A stretch of 64,000 bases of DNA from Thermosipho sp. (in: thermotogales) (lineage in GTDB: Bacteria; Thermotogota; Thermotogae; Thermotogales; Fervidobacteriaceae), in the NCBI GenBank assembly GCA_017656335.1, contig JACDOA010000001.1:186001-250000 (forward strand), in the 5' to 3' direction. The position numbers and the translations under genes were made by a program. The notes below the pieces were generated by a model that ran no database searches, was not told where the DNA came from, and saw nothing but the letters and a program-made list of their open reading frames with translations. Shown piece after piece: positions 38,842 to 51,961 of this stretch (positions are counted from its first letter, which is position 1; each line of letters starts with the position of its first letter).

Positions 38842-38856
38842 TTTGAGGTGAAAGTT

Positions 38857-39333
38857 ATGTGGTTAATTTTAAGTGATTCTCACGATAACATGAACAAAGC
38901 AAAAGAAATCGAAAAAATTATTGAAAAATATTCTGTTGAAGTTGTCTTTCATTGCGGCGATTTTGTAGCGCCATTTATTCTTCCATACTTTATAAAAGAT
39001 AATATTGAATTTTTTGGAGTTTTTGGAAACAACGATGGTGAAAAACTTCTTTTAACTCAAAGATCAAACAGTAAAATAAAAGTTGGCCCACGTGATCTAA
39101 CAATAAATAATTACAGAATTTTAATGATGCATGAGCCTTTTATATTAGAAGCTGCAAAAATGAGTAATTTATATGATTTCATATTTTTTGGCCATACACA
39201 CGAAATCTATACTGAGAAAGCAGAAAAATCATTAATAATTAATCCTGGTGAATCTTCAGGATGGCTTACTGGAAAAGCAAGTATTGCACTTTTAGAACCT
39301 GAAAACAAAACCTGGGAAATTTTATTTTTGTGA
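38857..39333 (+). CDS. YfcE/MJ0936-type metallophosphodiesterase
   Basis: Small calcineurin-like phosphoesterase of 158 aa. Metal-binding motifs are visible: LSDSHDN (D-x-H), HCGDFVAP (GD), FGVFGNNDGE (GNxD), MMHEP and FFGHTHEI (GHTH). Members cleave phosphodiesters in vitro with unclear physiological substrates. Start at ATG 38857, with GAGGTGA 9 bases upstream. Close behind acyP, so likely one transcript. Confidence 0.92.
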   Translation: MWLILSDSHDNMNKAKEIEKIIEKYSVEVVFHCGDFVAPFILPYFIKDNIEFFGVFGNNDGEKLLLTQRSNSKIKVGPRDLTINNYRILMMHEPFILEAAKMSNLYDFIFFGHTHEIYTEKAEKSLIINPGESSGWLTGKASIALLEPENKTWEILFL

Positions 39334-39342
39334 GGAATTTTC

Positions 39343-39990
39343 ATGTGCAGAATGATTGGTTTTTCTTTTAAAAATGATACTTTAATTAATGATCTGTTTA
39401 AATCACTTCAAGATATGTCAAAAAATGGACTAAAAAGCCCACATCTTCATGGCTTTGGAATTTACGCAATCAATGAATACAACGAGGTTTTATTTCATAA
39501 ATTTGAAGAGCCTATCTATGAAAAAGAAGTGTCTTTTCCAAGTTTAAAAATTGGAATAATTCACGCAAGAAAGGCTTCTCCAGATTTTCACATAGGTTTT
39601 CTACAAATACATCCTTTTATTGATCGTAATGGAACTGCTTTTTGCCATAATGGTACAATTCATACTTTAAAAAGAGAAAATATTTTTAAAAGTGACAGTT
39701 ATGAATATTTTTTGAAGATTAAAAATTTTACTGATACAAATGATCTCTCAAAAAAATTAAAAACATTTATTCAAGAAAATGAATTTACTGGACTAAACTT
39801 TTTGATGATAAAAGATGATAAACTATATGCTTTTTGCTATTTTAATAAAGATCCAGAATACTATACCATGTGGCATTCTGAAAATGTTATTTCTTCTGAA
39901 AGTTTAGGCTCAAATTTTAAAATGGTAAAAAAAGGTGAGCTTTTAATTTTTGAAAACGGAAAATTAATTTTTAAAGACATTGTTATATAA
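39343..39990 (+). CDS. Class II glutamine amidotransferase (YafJ-like)
   Basis: 215 aa, starting MCRMIGFSF so that Cys2 becomes the N-terminal nucleophile after Met removal. Also seen: LHGFGIYAINE, GIIHARKAS near 72 (Arg-Ala-S loop) and FCHNGTIH near 103, typical of Ntn-type amidotransferases of the YafJ group. No synthase domain is fused, so the ammonia acceptor is unknown. Followed by a new promoter region for the corA leader. Confidence 0.9.
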   Translation: MCRMIGFSFKNDTLINDLFKSLQDMSKNGLKSPHLHGFGIYAINEYNEVLFHKFEEPIYEKEVSFPSLKIGIIHARKASPDFHIGFLQIHPFIDRNGTAFCHNGTIHTLKRENIFKSDSYEYFLKIKNFTDTNDLSKKLKTFIQENEFTGLNFLMIKDDKLYAFCYFNKDPEYYTMWHSENVISSESLGSNFKMVKKGELLIFENGKLIFKDIVI

Positions 39991-40005
39991 ATTATTATTA
40001 AGTGG

Positions 40006-40011
40006 TATAAT
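40006..40011 (+). promoter_or_regulatory. Putative -10 box upstream of the corA leader ORF
   Basis: TATAAT at 40006-40011 in the gap after the amidotransferase. The leader ATG is 33 bases downstream, giving room for the AGGAGGTGA site. No good -35 at 17 bases; TTGTTA at 39980 has 20-base spacing. Confidence 0.5.
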
Positions 40012-40043
40012 TAAAAAAAGTCAAAATAGGAGGTGAAAAAGGG

Positions 40044-40103
40044 ATGAGTAGCGAGAGTTATACTAGTAGTTATTCAGATGAACCTTTACCACGACCACCG
40101 TAG
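40044..40103 (+). CDS. 19-codon corA leader peptide ORF
   Basis: ATG 40044 follows a very strong AGGAGGTGA (40029-40037) and encodes MSSESYTSSYSDEPLPRPP before TAG at 40101. Its second half combines two acidic residues and four prolines (DEPLPRPP), the kind of nascent chain known to destabilise ribosomes at low Mg2+ and to control mgtA through MgtL in Salmonella. The stop is 24 bases before the Mg2+/Co2+ transporter corA. TTTACC (40086-40091) inside the ORF can pair with GGTAAA (40118-40123) at the corA ribosome site. I infer a Mg2+-sensing leader; there is no homology evidence. Confidence 0.6.
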   Translation: MSSESYTSSYSDEPLPRPP

Positions 40104-40127
40104 TAAAAAAGAAAAGGAGGTAAAATT

Positions 40128-41054
40128 ATGGTAAAATTCTACACCACAAAAGATAACAAAATTGTGGAAATTGAGAAATTCGTTCCAAATTCTTTGATCA
40201 AAGTAGTCGATCCTTCCGCTGATGAGATTCATATGCTTTCCAGCCTTTTACAATTCGACCCTGACTTTATATACGACTCATTAGATGATGACGAAAGAGC
40301 GCGTATAGAAATTGATGATGACGTTATTTTGATAATTTTAAAGATTCCCAAAAAATTTAATGGCAATTCAAAAATTCCATATAAAACTGTTTCAATGGGT
40401 ATTATTATTGGTAAAAACTACACAATATTCTCGACTCGAGGACCTATCGAATTTATTGATCATATGATAGAAAACAACAAATTTGAAATTACAAAAACAA
40501 GTAGAATGATTTTTCAACTTTTTTTATTAAACGCTAAAATTTTCTTAGGATATTTAAAAGAGGTTAATAAAACAATAAGTATAATTGAGGAAGAATTACA
40601 TAAATCAATGAAAAACAAAGAATTAGAAGAAATGATGTACCTTGAAAAAAGTCTGGTTTACTTTACTACTTCATTGAGATCAAATGAAATTATGATGGAA
40701 AAACTTTTGAGAGGAAATATTTTAAAGATACAAGAAGAAGATCGAGATATATTAGAAGATGCTATTATTGAAAATAGGCAGGCAATAGAAGTTTCAAATA
40801 TATTTAGTGATATCTTAGCCGGTATGATGGATTCATACGCTTCAGTTATTTCTAATAATTTGAATATTGTCATGAAAATTCTAACTGTTGTTACTATATT
40901 AATGCAAATTCCTACTATTATTACAAGTTTCTATGGAATGAATGTTTCATTACCACTTCAGAATAATCCTTTTGCTTATGTTCATGTAATTATTTGGTCT
41001 GTAGGTACAATAATTTTGGCTTTAGTATGGTTTAAAAGAAAAAAATGGTTGTAA
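40128..41054 (+). CDS. corA: Magnesium/cobalt transporter CorA
   Basis: Pentameric channel-like Mg2+ uptake protein. 308 aa with an acidic N-terminal cytoplasmic domain, a long stalk helix and two C-terminal membrane spans; the diagnostic YGMN motif is present (FYGMNVSLPLQ, about residue 268) and the C-terminus is basic (KRKKWL). Strong AAGGAGGT site. It follows the proposed leader ORF and is followed by a strong terminator. Confidence 0.95.
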   Translation: MVKFYTTKDNKIVEIEKFVPNSLIKVVDPSADEIHMLSSLLQFDPDFIYDSLDDDERARIEIDDDVILIILKIPKKFNGNSKIPYKTVSMGIIIGKNYTIFSTRGPIEFIDHMIENNKFEITKTSRMIFQLFLLNAKIFLGYLKEVNKTISIIEEELHKSMKNKELEEMMYLEKSLVYFTTSLRSNEIMMEKLLRGNILKIQEEDRDILEDAIIENRQAIEVSNIFSDILAGMMDSYASVISNNLNIVMKILTVVTILMQIPTIITSFYGMNVSLPLQNNPFAYVHVIIWSVGTIILALVWFKRKKWL

Positions 41055-41058
41055 AATT

Positions 41059-41082
41059 AAATCCCCCAGTTGGGGGATTTTT
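41059..41082 (+). terminator. Terminator of corA
   Basis: Perfect 10-bp stem AAATCCCCCA (41059-41068) with TGGGGGATTT (41071-41080), 2-base turn, then T. Directly after the corA stop at 41054. Confidence 0.88.
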
Positions 41083-41430
41083 AATTGGCTCAGACATTGC
41101 TGTAAAATTAACGTTAAAAATAAAAGTAATCAACTTTTTGTATTACATAACTATCAAAGATAATTTGACAAGTTTTTAATAAAAATCCTAATTTATTTCC
41201 AACAATATTTTTAGTATCTTTACTTACCACATAATTAATATAAAACCTCAAAATATCACATTATTAAAGTTCAAAGTATTTAATCCATTTTTCAAAAATA
41301 AGATACTATTCAAATTTTCTTTTTTGCATTAAAGTCAAATTTCTGAAATCGCTTTTCTCATCAAATCCCACAAAATTACATTATTAATCAATAAATTTTC
41401 ATACTTTTCAATAATTCACTTTAATGCATT
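41083..41430. other. AT-rich non-coding interval between corA and cas2
   Basis: No ORF with a ribosome site and no CRISPR repeat unit were found. Imperfect direct repeats of the form CAAAAT-ACATTATTAA occur near 41253 and 41373, and an inverted pair GCATTAAAGT/ACTTTAATGC near 41327 and 41419. These may be a decayed array or just AT-rich noise. Confidence 0.4.
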
Positions 41431-48497: not shown

Positions 48498-48503
48498 TAT
48501 AAT
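48498..48503 (+). promoter_or_regulatory. Putative -10 box of the cobalamin riboswitch transcript
   Basis: TATAAT at 48498-48503, just after the dxr stop and about 17 bases before the riboswitch begins. The -35 region is poor. Confidence 0.55.
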
Positions 48504-48519
48504 AATTTTGAAACTGAAT

Positions 48520-48665
48520 AAACTCCACCCTTTCGCAAAAGGGAAGTCGGTGAAAATCCGACACGGGGACGCCACCGTAACCGGGGACGAAATCCACAAA
48601 TGCCACTGGGCTTTGCCTGGGAAGGCGTGGAAAGTAGGATGATCCGGAAGTCGGGATACCTTTTG
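48520..48665 (+). ncRNA. Adenosylcobalamin riboswitch aptamer
   Basis: Consensus elements appear in order: AAAAGGGAAGTCGGTGAAAA (from 48537), CCGACACGGGGACGCCACCGT, the B12 box GCCACTG (48602-48608), TGGGAAGGCG (48618-48627) and GGATGATCCGGAAGTC (48637-48652). This matches the cobalamin class. It precedes btuF-btuC, giving the expected feedback: bound B12 stops expression of the importer. Boundaries are approximate. Confidence 0.95.
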
Positions 48666-48670
48666 CGGAA

Positions 48671-48712
48671 GGGACGGAAACCACCTTTACGGTCCCTAAA
48701 GGTGGGCGTTTT
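48671..48712 (+). terminator. Riboswitch expression platform: terminator with a competing helix
   Basis: Terminator stem CCACCTTTA (48681-48689) with TAAAGGTGG (48697-48705), then GCGTTTTT. GGGAC (48671-48675) can instead pair with GTCCC (48692-48696) in the loop, which may form an alternative structure. Points to transcriptional control of btuF. Confidence 0.82.
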
Positions 48713-48738
48713 TCTTTAAAAAATATGGAGGTGAAAAC

Positions 48739-49620
48739 ATGAAAAAAGTGCTGAGTTTGGTAATTTTATTTGTTTTAATTTTAAATGCGTATCCATTAAC
48801 CGTGGTTGATGATGCTGGAAGGATAGTAAATATTGAAAACGTTCCTCAAAGAGTTGTTTCAGCTGCTCCAAATGCTACCAGATTTTTAATTTCACTTGAT
48901 CTTCAAGACAAAATAGTTGGTGTGACCGATTGGGATAGTTTTAATGCTGAAAAAATAGGAAATCTTGTTCCTTTAAACGTTGAAAAAATTCTTTCACTTA
49001 AACCTGATCTTGTTATAACTTTTGGTGGTTTTCAACTACCTGATGCAAAAAAACTTGAAAAGTTTGGCTTAAATGTTCTTGTTTTAAACCCTGTTTCATT
49101 AAATGATATTTCAAAAGATATTGCACTTCTTGGGGCTGTTTTTGAAAAAACTAATGAAGCAAAAAAGATTGTTGAGGAAATTCAAAGCACCATTACAAAT
49201 TTTGGAATTAAAACTTCAAAAATTCCATTTGAAAATAGACCAACAGTTTTCTTTACTATTACAACTCCAAATGATGAAACAAAAGAATTATGGACAGCGG
49301 GTACTGGTTCATATATTAATGAATTGATTACAATTGCTGGTGGTGTTAATATTACTGCTCCTTACTCTGGTAATAATGGCTGGCTTCCTATTAATTGGGA
49401 ATTTTTGATATATAATAATCCTGATATAATTATAATTGCAACTTATGATGAACCCAATAAAACAATTAAAACGATTAAAAACAGTGAAATTTTTGGAAGT
49501 TTAAAAGCAATAAAAAACAACAAAATTCTTATTGTTGATGGAAATGAAATCAGCCAAATATCTCCTGATATAATAAAATATCTTGATATATTCTACAATT
49601 TCTTTTATGGAGGAAATTAA
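48739..49620 (+). CDS. btuF: Cobalamin-type ABC transporter substrate-binding protein
   Basis: 293-aa exported binding protein of the BtuF/FhuD class. Signal peptide: basic start, hydrophobic core and cleavage near AYP/LT (about residue 19). Mature part has RVVSAAPNATRFLISLDLQDKIVGVTDWDSF and NVEKILSLKPDLVITFGG, typical of this cluster. Placed behind a cobalamin riboswitch, so cobalamin or a corrinoid precursor is the likely ligand. Overlaps btuC by 1 base. Confidence 0.92.
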   Translation: MKKVLSLVILFVLILNAYPLTVVDDAGRIVNIENVPQRVVSAAPNATRFLISLDLQDKIVGVTDWDSFNAEKIGNLVPLNVEKILSLKPDLVITFGGFQLPDAKKLEKFGLNVLVLNPVSLNDISKDIALLGAVFEKTNEAKKIVEEIQSTITNFGIKTSKIPFENRPTVFFTITTPNDETKELWTAGTGSYINELITIAGGVNITAPYSGNNGWLPINWEFLIYNNPDIIIIATYDEPNKTIKTIKNSEIFGSLKAIKNNKILIVDGNEISQISPDIIKYLDIFYNFFYGGN

Positions 49621-50609
49621 TGAACAAAGATCTTTTCTTTAAGTATGGAAGAATAATTATACCTTTGTTATTTATTTTTACTTTAATAATTAACCTTTCT
49701 CTTGGAAGTGTAAAAATTCCATTAATTGAAATTTTTAAATCATTATTTAGTGATAGTCAGACTCATTTTTTAATTTGGAATTTACGTTTTCCAAGAATTT
49801 TAATGGGAATTATCTCAGGAGCCGGACTTGCTGTTGTCGGCTCCGTTTTTCAAACAATAATGAAAAATCCATTGGTTGATCCTTACTTGATAGGAACTTC
49901 TGCTGGCGCCGGATTTGGTGCGGTTTTAGCAATTTATATAGCTGCATCGTTTTATAAATATTTTAGCATTACTCTTTTTTCCTTTTTCTTTTCTTTTTTA
50001 GCTTCATTTTTGACTATTCTTTTAGCTAGAAGGAAGGGGATTATTCCAATAACTCATTTGATTTTATCCGGTGTTCTTATAAGTACTACATTTTCTTCGG
50101 GAACTATTCTTCTGATAAACTTTTCAAGAAGAAATATAACAAATGCATATGTATGGCTTTTCGGTAGTTTATCTGGAATTACTTTTAATGATTTAATCAT
50201 TCCCTCAATATCAGTTATAGCCTTTTTTGTATTTTCTCTACTCAAATCAAAAGAGCTAGACACGATAGCAATTGGGGAGGAAGAAGCCAAAATATTAGGA
50301 GTTGAAGTTGAAAGAGAAAAATGGATTTTTTATCTTTTTGGTGCATTTGTAATTTCTACAATTGTCTCAAAAGTAGGAATAATTGGTTTTGTTGGATTAA
50401 TTATTCCACATGCTGCACGAATATTAACTGGAAGCAAACATAAATATAGTTTAATTGGAAGTTTTCTATTGGGTGGAGTCTTTTTATCGTTTTCAGATAC
50501 AATTGCCAGAACAATTGTTTCACCTATTGAAATACCAATTGGAGTAATTACTTCATTTATTGGGGCTCCATTAATGTTTGTTTTACTTAAAAGAGGTGTT
50601 TCGAAATGA
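49620..50609 (+). CDS. btuC: Cobalamin-type ABC transporter permease
   Basis: 329-aa FecCD/BtuC permease with about ten spans. Seen: RFPRILMGIISGAGLAVVGSVFQTIMKNPLVDPYLIGTSAGAGFGA near residue 57, GFVGLIIPHAARILTGSKHK near 257 and a C-terminal IGVITSFIGAPLMFVLLKR. Together with the preceding binding protein it forms the importer controlled by the riboswitch. The ATPase BtuD is not in this operon; the next gene is a HAD phosphatase overlapping by 4 bases. Confidence 0.94.
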   Translation: MNKDLFFKYGRIIIPLLFIFTLIINLSLGSVKIPLIEIFKSLFSDSQTHFLIWNLRFPRILMGIISGAGLAVVGSVFQTIMKNPLVDPYLIGTSAGAGFGAVLAIYIAASFYKYFSITLFSFFFSFLASFLTILLARRKGIIPITHLILSGVLISTTFSSGTILLINFSRRNITNAYVWLFGSLSGITFNDLIIPSISVIAFFVFSLLKSKELDTIAIGEEEAKILGVEVEREKWIFYLFGAFVISTIVSKVGIIGFVGLIIPHAARILTGSKHKYSLIGSFLLGGVFLSFSDTIARTIVSPIEIPIGVITSFIGAPLMFVLLKRGVSK

Positions 50610-51415
50610 TATTTTTAAATGACAATTCTAGAAATAAATTAAAAAAAATTAAACTTTTTGTACTTGATATTGATGGCACTTTTTCTTTAAGTGGAAAACC
50701 TCTTCCAGGTGCAAAAGAATTTATTTCAACAATCAAAAATCAAAATAAACATTTTGTTTTTTTAACAAACAACTCTAATAAATCTTTGGAAGAATATGTT
50801 TTTGAATTTAAAAAACATAATATTGACGTTTCAAAAAAACAAATCTTTACTGCTGGGATTGAAACAGCTGAATATATTTATCAAAAATTTGGGAGAAGAA
50901 AAATTTATATTGTTGGCACAAATGCTATTAAAGAAATTTTTTCAAAATATGGTCATGAAGTTGTTGAAAACGAAGAACCAGATATAGTTGTAATTTCTTT
51001 TGATAAATCTTTAACATACGAAAAACTTGCAAAAGCATCTGTATATGTATCAAAGGGTAAACTATTTGTACTTACAAACCCCGATCTAAATTGTCCCTCA
51101 AAAGATGGACCAATTCCAGATACTGGTTCAATTGCATCAGTTATTGAAAAAGCATCTGATAAAAAACCCAATATAGTATTTGGAAAACCTGACCCATTAA
51201 TATTAGAAATGATAATTAAAAAATTTAATGTAAAAAAAGAAGAAACATGTGTAATAGGAGACAGGTTATATACAGATATTTTACTGGGAATAAGAGCTGA
51301 AGTAACAACAATTTTAGTTTTAACAGGAGAAGCAAAAGGGGAAGATATTAAGAACTCTAATATTAAACCAGATATTATCGCTAAAGATTTAGGTGAAATC
51401 GCCAAATTTATATAA
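50606..51415 (+). CDS. HAD superfamily IIA phosphatase (NagD/PNPase-like)
   Basis: 269 aa. Nucleophile motif FVLDIDGTF near residue 21, LTNNSNKS near 56 (motif II), a long IIA cap, and GDRLYTDILLG near 217 with the metal-binding Asp pair. NagD-like enzymes dephosphorylate sugar phosphates or nucleotides. It overlaps btuC, so it is in the riboswitch operon; a role in salvage of B12 nucleotide-loop phosphate is conceivable but only inference. Ends just before a strong terminator. Confidence 0.9.
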   Translation: MIFLNDNSRNKLKKIKLFVLDIDGTFSLSGKPLPGAKEFISTIKNQNKHFVFLTNNSNKSLEEYVFEFKKHNIDVSKKQIFTAGIETAEYIYQKFGRRKIYIVGTNAIKEIFSKYGHEVVENEEPDIVVISFDKSLTYEKLAKASVYVSKGKLFVLTNPDLNCPSKDGPIPDTGSIASVIEKASDKKPNIVFGKPDPLILEMIIKKFNVKKEETCVIGDRLYTDILLGIRAEVTTILVLTGEAKGEDIKNSNIKPDIIAKDLGEIAKFI

Positions 51416-51445: not shown

Positions 51446-51807
51446 TGGTGGAGGCGGCGGGAATCGAACCCGCGTCCGAAAGTAGATACCCTCGAGCTTC
51501 TCCGAGCGCAGTCCGTGTTTTAGATTTCGGGTTTGAAGCGCCCACGGACAGGCTCTTCAAACCCTATCCTTCCTAGTTTTTCACGACTTTGGGCGGAAGG
51601 AAAACCCAAGTCGCTAGGCTGGTTATGTCACGCCCTGACCAGAACCCCAGCCAAGTTCTGGTAGGACGGCAGCTTTTTTAATTAAGCTGCAAGAGCAAGT
51701 TCTTCGTTGGCACTTATCTTTTTCCTGGACTTTTGATAACGAGGAGCCCAGGAAACCTCGGCTCGCTTCTCGAGGGTATCTACCCCCGTCGAGACCAGTT
51801 CGCCCCC
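51446..51807 (-). ncRNA. ssrA: Transfer-messenger RNA
   Basis: About 362 nt on the minus strand. The tRNA-like ends pair (GGGGGCG with CGCCTCC) and CCA is encoded at 51446-51448; the 5' end shows GGGGGCGAACTGGTCTCGAC. The resume codons read ANEELALAA and stop (complement of about 51681-51710), an Ala-Ala-ending tag as expected for ClpXP targeting. Rescues stalled ribosomes. Internal pseudoknots were not folded. Confidence 0.95.
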
Positions 51808-51841
51808 ATATTGTTATGACTTTGAAATGCTTATAAAAGTT

Positions 51842-51868
51842 CCAAAAAAAATGGCCCCTTCAGGGACC
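51842..51868 (-). terminator. Terminator-like hairpin between tRNA-Leu and tmRNA
   Basis: Minus strand GGTCCCTGAAGGGGCC forms a stem with a short loop and is followed by a run of eight T (A run at 51843-51850 on the plus strand). It may end tRNA-Leu transcription partially or wholly before tmRNA. Confidence 0.65.
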
Positions 51869-51872
51869 TTGT

Positions 51873-51961
51873 TGGTGCCGAGGGCGGGACTTGAACCCGC
51901 ACGGGCCATAATGCCCACATGGCCCTCAACCATGCGTGTCTGCCTATTCCACCACCTCGGC
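51873..51961 (-). tRNA. tRNA-Leu (GAG)
   Basis: Minus-strand 89-nt type II tRNA with long variable arm and encoded CCA (TGG at 51873-51875). Acceptor GCCGAGG pairs with CCTCGGC. The anticodon loop TTGAGGG between CATGG and CCATG gives GAG. A near-consensus promoter lies just upstream. Confidence 0.96.

Follow-up and report, generated by a model that had tools for sequence, protein, structure and literature searches.

A conserved acidic/proline leader peptide precedes corA in Thermotogota and may adjust its expression to Mg2+

In the 64-kb window (the whole stretch of DNA that was analyzed), corA is preceded by a short leader ORF encoding MSSESYTSSYSDEPLPRPP, and comparable leaders precede the gene in most of the sampled Thermotogota genomes that carry this transporter. 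Judged from the sequences, the ORF is almost certainly real and not a product of chance. Control of corA by leader translation is likely, and from sequence and analogy we favor, with moderate confidence, a translated cis-acting leader that would set corA expression by how well ribosomes complete it, cytoplasmic Mg2+ being the likely signal.

The features of the locus are listed in Table 1. The leader has 19 sense codons between the ATG and the TAG at 40101-40103 (ATG AGT AGC GAG AGT TAT ACT AGT AGT TAT TCA GAT GAA CCT TTA CCA CGA CCA CCG TAG), and the corA ATG lies 24 nt past its stop; the ORF position, the DEPLPRPP end, and the 24-nt distance given in the initial annotation were all confirmed. 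A strong ribosome site was described there as well: among the intergenic SD-led short ORFs of the window, the corA leader is the only one that has a full AGGAGGTG and stands directly before a gene, and the SD core GGAGGTG is retained in all loci of the window's family (f1). Shortly before the leader SD there is an extended -10-like box, so that the 5' leader would be too short for an aptamer; a consensus promoter scan returned no full-promoter score for this box. The initial annotation had noted neither the box nor the terminator-like hairpin that follows corA. The downstream protein belongs to the CorA family (Pfam PF01544, E 1.5e-50) and is also matched by solved CorA structures. Its score falls below the NCBIfam cut-off for TIGR00383, which points to a shorter, 308-residue CorA subfamily. 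Upstream of the unit (38848-39990) are genes for a calcineurin-like phosphoesterase and a weak class-II glutamine amidotransferase-like protein, the latter kept as a neighbor in several relatives, not all.

Table 1. Features of the corA locus (positions in the 64-kb window)
Feature	Position	Strand	Basis or remark
Extended -10-like box, TGG-TATAAT	40003..40011	+	Just 5' of leader; recurs in most related loci
Leader ribosome-binding site, AGGAGGTG	40028..40035	+	Full SD
corA leader ORF, MSSESYTSSYSDEPLPRPP-stop	40044..40103	+	Sequence, cross-genome conservation
D-E-P codons, acidic/Pro cluster, putative ribosome-destabilizing element	40077..40085	+	Conserved; function suggested by MgtL EPDP (PMC11282234)
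R-P-P-stop, conserved leader end	40092..40103	+	Slow elongation/termination would be expected
corA ribosome-binding site, AGGAGG	40115..40120	+	11 nt past leader stop
corA, 308-aa CorA-family Mg2+ transporter	40128..41054	+	Pfam, similarity to solved CorA structures
Hairpin resembling an intrinsic terminator, 3' of corA	41060..41083	+	Sequence

Our sample comprised 103 Thermotogota genomes, 41 of which hold this CorA, and leaders were counted by inspecting the upstream regions. An intact leader is present in 32 of the 41: 9/9 in f1, 8/8 in f9, 14/15 in f11, 1/3 in f4, and 0/6 in the Thermotogaceae-type family f3. The f3 genes lack the leader, so it is dispensable in places, and none was seen on inspection of the upstream regions of the T. 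maritima-type CorA loci (L021-L030). The f4 count leaves out one relict, L015, a relative of L013: its start codon is ACG, the frame E-V-A-R-N-A-E-M-P-T-R-P-P-stop is kept upstream of corA, and the Pro/Arg codon changes are synonymous. The ACG may represent decay, a non-canonical start, or a sequence error. The initial annotation suggested an alignment over Thermosipho and Fervidobacterium. All nine f1 genomes that have this CorA also have the leader; Fervidobacterium-type relatives (genus g3 of f1, name assumed) do not carry this CorA and mostly have MgtE. The same holds for f1 genera without this CorA in general, whereas MgtE was not found in the nine f1 genomes with CorA, that of the window included. 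Together with the absence of the Mg2+ M-box (ykoK, RF00380) from all 103 genomes by a search that detected its positive controls, this points to corA as the probable principal Mg2+ importer, controlled by the leader.

The leaders take the forms MSSESYTSSYSDEPLPRPP, MSSDSFSRYSDEPLSRPP, and MESYGSYSDEPLPRPP in f1, MDYFSCSEDPLSRPP and MDSSSSSKDVVSLPP in f9, MELYSSEGDLPP and MELYSSESEPPL in f11, MESASNTEIPLRPP in f4, and MDCFNCDDDSKYKPP at L052 (from a MAG labelled Fusobacteriales), each followed by a stop codon. Their ends differ by lineage (DEPLPRPP, SEDPLSRPP, or ELYSSESEPPL before the stop). The acidic/Pro cluster is kept as DEP, EEP, DDP, or EDP in f1 and in genus g20 of f9, and PP-stop ends all nine f1 leaders, the eight f9 leaders, and that of L013; most Mesotoga-type leaders end in PPL-stop and one in MPN-stop. 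Over the last eight leader codons pN/pS is 0.17, the variable columns are distributed 2/0/7 over the first, second, and third codon positions, and when columns were shuffled 5000 times, the amino acids came out equally constant in only 3 cases. The core proposal of the initial annotation, an acidic/Pro-rich, MgtL-like leader before corA, had been staked in advance on conservation, and it survived: the peptide reaches far beyond close strains while its synonymous sites drift. The leader is also retained at loci whose upstream neighbor gene differs (at least L006 and L008). When the 103 genomes were searched for an SD-ATG-PP-stop pattern, the matches that are evident as in-frame leaders precede corA; the leftover matches before other genes are not evident in-frame leaders and are about as numerous as in the reversed control. 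A second corA-like fragment (G012:C1:189255-189533) is broken, with one in-frame TAA. An independent small protein that has a function of its own, such as a CorA partner, would also look translated and be under purifying selection, yet the length (12-19 aa) and N-terminus of the peptide vary freely, it has no hydrophobic segment, it is found only before corA, and unrelated acidic-Pro peptides take its place in Bacillota; we give this explanation hardly any credence.

Next to the peptide, RNA structure was considered. It had been suggested that TTTACC inside the leader (40085-40090) pairs with GGTAAA at the corA SD (40119-40124), so that leader ribosomes would break or allow the pairing. The six complementary bases do exist in the window, and 4-5 bp persist in some f1 relatives, but sister genomes with the leader lack the pairing (L003, L004, L010, and L031-L036), and so do the f9 loci, in which the peptide is kept. 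No conserved secondary structure above shuffles was detected in the compact leaders of f1 and f9 (mean z -0.22), and in the computed fold of the window sequence the corA SD is unpaired (P 0.91). We rejected this pairing as a candidate, and an RNA switch of this kind is very improbable. Nor were mgtQ-type alternative stem-loops that hide and free the transporter SD found in the window or the compact loci, and no Rfam element matched the corA locus of the window. With a gap of 24 nt between leader and corA and no structure above chance, a Rho-dependent terminator looks unlikely in the window's form. The leader stop lies 7-15 nt before the corA SD in 18 compact loci. Kosmotogaceae-type leaders end 80-130 nt upstream of corA, and there the corA SD lies masked within a strong hairpin (mean z -2.7). 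Pairing of the leader with an arm of this hairpin is no better than in shuffles (mean z -0.38), and of the 16 pairs that RNAalifold gave for the Mesotoga-type hairpin, one is compensatory. What can be read from the sequences is a conserved peptide with its position and motif, and hairpins in relatives.

Sensing of Mg2+ via ribosome destabilization appears to be the best-supported mechanism, on the grounds of motif, context, and precedent. In the scheme that we infer, with Mg2+ as the signal, ribosome drop-off, slow termination, and a defined ON/OFF sign, 70S ribosomes at low Mg2+ would pause or fall off while making the acidic/Pro stretch (window, SDEP; elsewhere, SEDP, SESEPP, or EPDP), which would leave the corA start free and allow CorA to be made. 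At adequate Mg2+, ribosomes would reach the end of the leader; on the compact form they would pause at R-P-P-stop, the leading edge lying over the corA SD, and corA initiation would be held down; the Kosmotogaceae-type and Bacillales relatives may instead use an SD-hiding RNA hairpin as the output. The window peptide has no exact EPDP repeat; its DEP occupies residues 12-14, and one acidic residue (E4) stands near the start. We know of no demonstration of ribosome drop-off in thermophiles. The ribosome footprint reaches ~16 nt from the P site (PMC7544508), and a ribosome at the leader stop would thus cover ~10 nt beyond it, i.e., the edge of the corA SD. Queued ribosomes stack ~27 nt apart (PMC7544508), and the P-site to P-site spacing of 30 nt in the window is close to this distance, which makes occlusion borderline. 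Were termination coupled to reinitiation, the sign would be the opposite. In a constitutive version of this coupling, a strongly initiated short cistron would load ribosomes that reinitiate at corA 20-30 nt downstream, and no Mg2+ would be sensed. The strong leader SD, the short distance, and the lack of RNA structure in compact loci are compatible with such coupling. It needs no particular peptide, however, yet the C-terminal amino acids of the leader are strongly constrained, leaders before corA in other phyla again have acidic-Pro content, and the Kosmotogaceae-type leaders stop far upstream; we regard it as unlikely.

Acidic-Pro leaders in Bacillota were first revealed by a CorA profile scan and inspection of the upstream regions, and a set of 24 Bacillales loci was taken from further genomes, none of which had been used to form the idea. 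At 12 of the 24 loci, an SD-led leader carries a [DE]P[DE]P motif (EPDP, EPEP, or DPDP) among its first 16 residues, against 0/400 other ORFs from the loci retrieved and 0% of shuffles. A looser acidic-Pro motif occurs at 19 of 24, vs. 3/400 other ORFs and 0.9% of shuffles; it was defined after the leaders had been seen, and the genomes, being related, do not count as independent, so that all these values are frequencies, not probabilities. The motif is mostly at residue 8, and the leader stops 12-47 nt before corA. The codons right after the motif, as a rule GAGGAAG (Glu-Glu), can base-pair with a CTTCCTC-like segment near the leader end, and this anti-SD segment is also complementary to the corA SD; the two pairings have a mean z of -2.3 each over the 24 loci. 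If ribosomes dropped off at EPDP, GAGGAAG would remain open and could capture the anti-SD; if they translated past EPDP, the anti-SD would be able to hide the corA SD. The likeness to MgtL that the initial annotation had put forward is thereby strengthened, the Bacillales corA leaders carrying an EPDP-type motif with a translational switch attached. EPDP/EPEP/DPDP leaders with the three-way leader : anti-SD : corA-SD arrangement are those at L083, L091, L114, L127, and L163-L187.

The same leaders bear on another alternative, in which the conserved R-P-P-stop is a termination-arrest signal responding to EF-P activity, charged tRNA-Pro, release factor, or polyamine instead of Mg2+. The logic of such arrest would resemble that of TnaC or RAPP peptides. 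No feature of the f1 and f9 leaders is more constant than PP-stop, and Pro-Pro and RAPP-type motifs do stall ribosomes; on the other hand, the Mesotoga-type leaders depart from this end, the Bacillales leaders have no PP end and keep [DE]P[DE]P near the start, and the constant partner is a Mg2+ transporter. We consider arrest of this sort quite improbable. In Clostridia, MDADP/MDCDP/MDSDP leaders were found at 12 of 29 loci compared with 3% of shuffles, and two more conserved leader families, MDVGPSYRR... and MDSGPEHSC..., precede corA (L060, L085, and L100; L065, L067, and L209). Several Fusobacteriota have MDTYS-type leaders before corA: those at L236-L240, L242, and L244 are short (MDTYSWWNNKKN, MDTYSLCYKKI, and similar, each with a stop) and share an M-acidic-x-Tyr-Ser start with the Kosmotogaceae-type leaders. 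A wider scan under a stricter SD-spacing rule gave 16 hits among 75 corA loci, and no leader was found in many of the distant phyla in it; the trait is therefore patchy.

The EPDP of MgtL causes Mg2+-dependent ribosome drop-off (PMC11282234). The leader of the window shares with the MgtL leader of mgtA in Salmonella and E. coli its small size, an SD of its own, and a place 5' of a Mg2+ importer gene. Its conservation is at the peptide level, and in Thermotogota an acidic-Pro cluster (DEP, EDP, or ESEPP) falls within the first ~30 residues. In MgtL the acidic/Pro EPDP is near the N-terminus, as in the Bacillales corA leaders, and the leader, long and structured, acts through Rho-dependent transcription termination. 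No comparable structure is present in the leader of the window, which reads DEP...RPP-stop and ends close to the corA SD; we claim no sequence homology. In the 8-aa ORF mgtQ before mgtB of Salmonella, D2 and E5 control exposure of the mgtB SD (PMC8092293). This translation-level control has the logic seen in the three-way switch of Bacillales and is similar to the hairpin of the Kosmotogaceae-type genomes, but mgtQ is inside an operon and its Pro codon acts via RNA, whereas the window's leader has a conserved PP-stop and no alternative stem-loops. In enterobacteria corA is controlled by corL, a leader ORF likewise located before it; in E. coli, corL translation responds to Mg2+ and runs inversely to the expression of corA. 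The corL leader differs in having few acidic/Pro residues, Rho, and structured RNA (PMC11552253). The corA RNA motif is found only in gamma-proteobacteria (PMC6429828). The RAPP/RGPP arrest peptides found to date stand mainly before genes for localization, TonB, or copper functions, and most of them have a signal or TM segment (PMC12992588); they share with the window's leader an Arg/Pro-Pro near the C-terminus of an upstream ORF, but the latter ends in PRPP (SRPP in relatives), not RAPP or RGPP, and is hydrophilic. The initial annotation knew of no such leader in this lineage, and in the open-access literature, subscription papers lying outside the search, we found no description of one in Thermotogota, Bacillota, or Fusobacteriota.

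The preservation of the leader across Thermotogota and the look-alikes before the same gene in Bacillota and Fusobacteriota suggest that bacteria far from Salmonella probably also sense low Mg2+ by the translation quality of a short leader. On sequence and precedent we would propose more tentatively, as a possibility short of even chances, that Thermotogota, Bacillota, and Fusobacteriota at the least control corA through acidic/Pro leaders that sense Mg2+, a widespread and repeatedly remodelled mechanism. The form in the window would be a minimal one without an RNA switch in which a ribosome terminating slowly at R-P-P-stop covers the transporter start. If so, the direct use of ribosome stability to sense Mg2+, which to date has been worked out in Salmonella and E. 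coli, would be a general bacterial strategy extending to thermophiles and Gram-positives, and the compact form of Thermotogota would stand out among nascent-chain regulators for its simplicity. The Bacillales leaders, with EPDP and a readable anti-SD switch, are directly testable in laboratory Bacillus. Elsewhere in the window, a cobalamin riboswitch (RF00174) precedes genes for a periplasmic binding protein and a FecCD permease, a probable B12 or corrinoid ABC uptake operon, with a HAD hydrolase gene behind it (48498-51415), and a tmRNA with an adjacent tRNA lies on the minus strand at 51446-51961.
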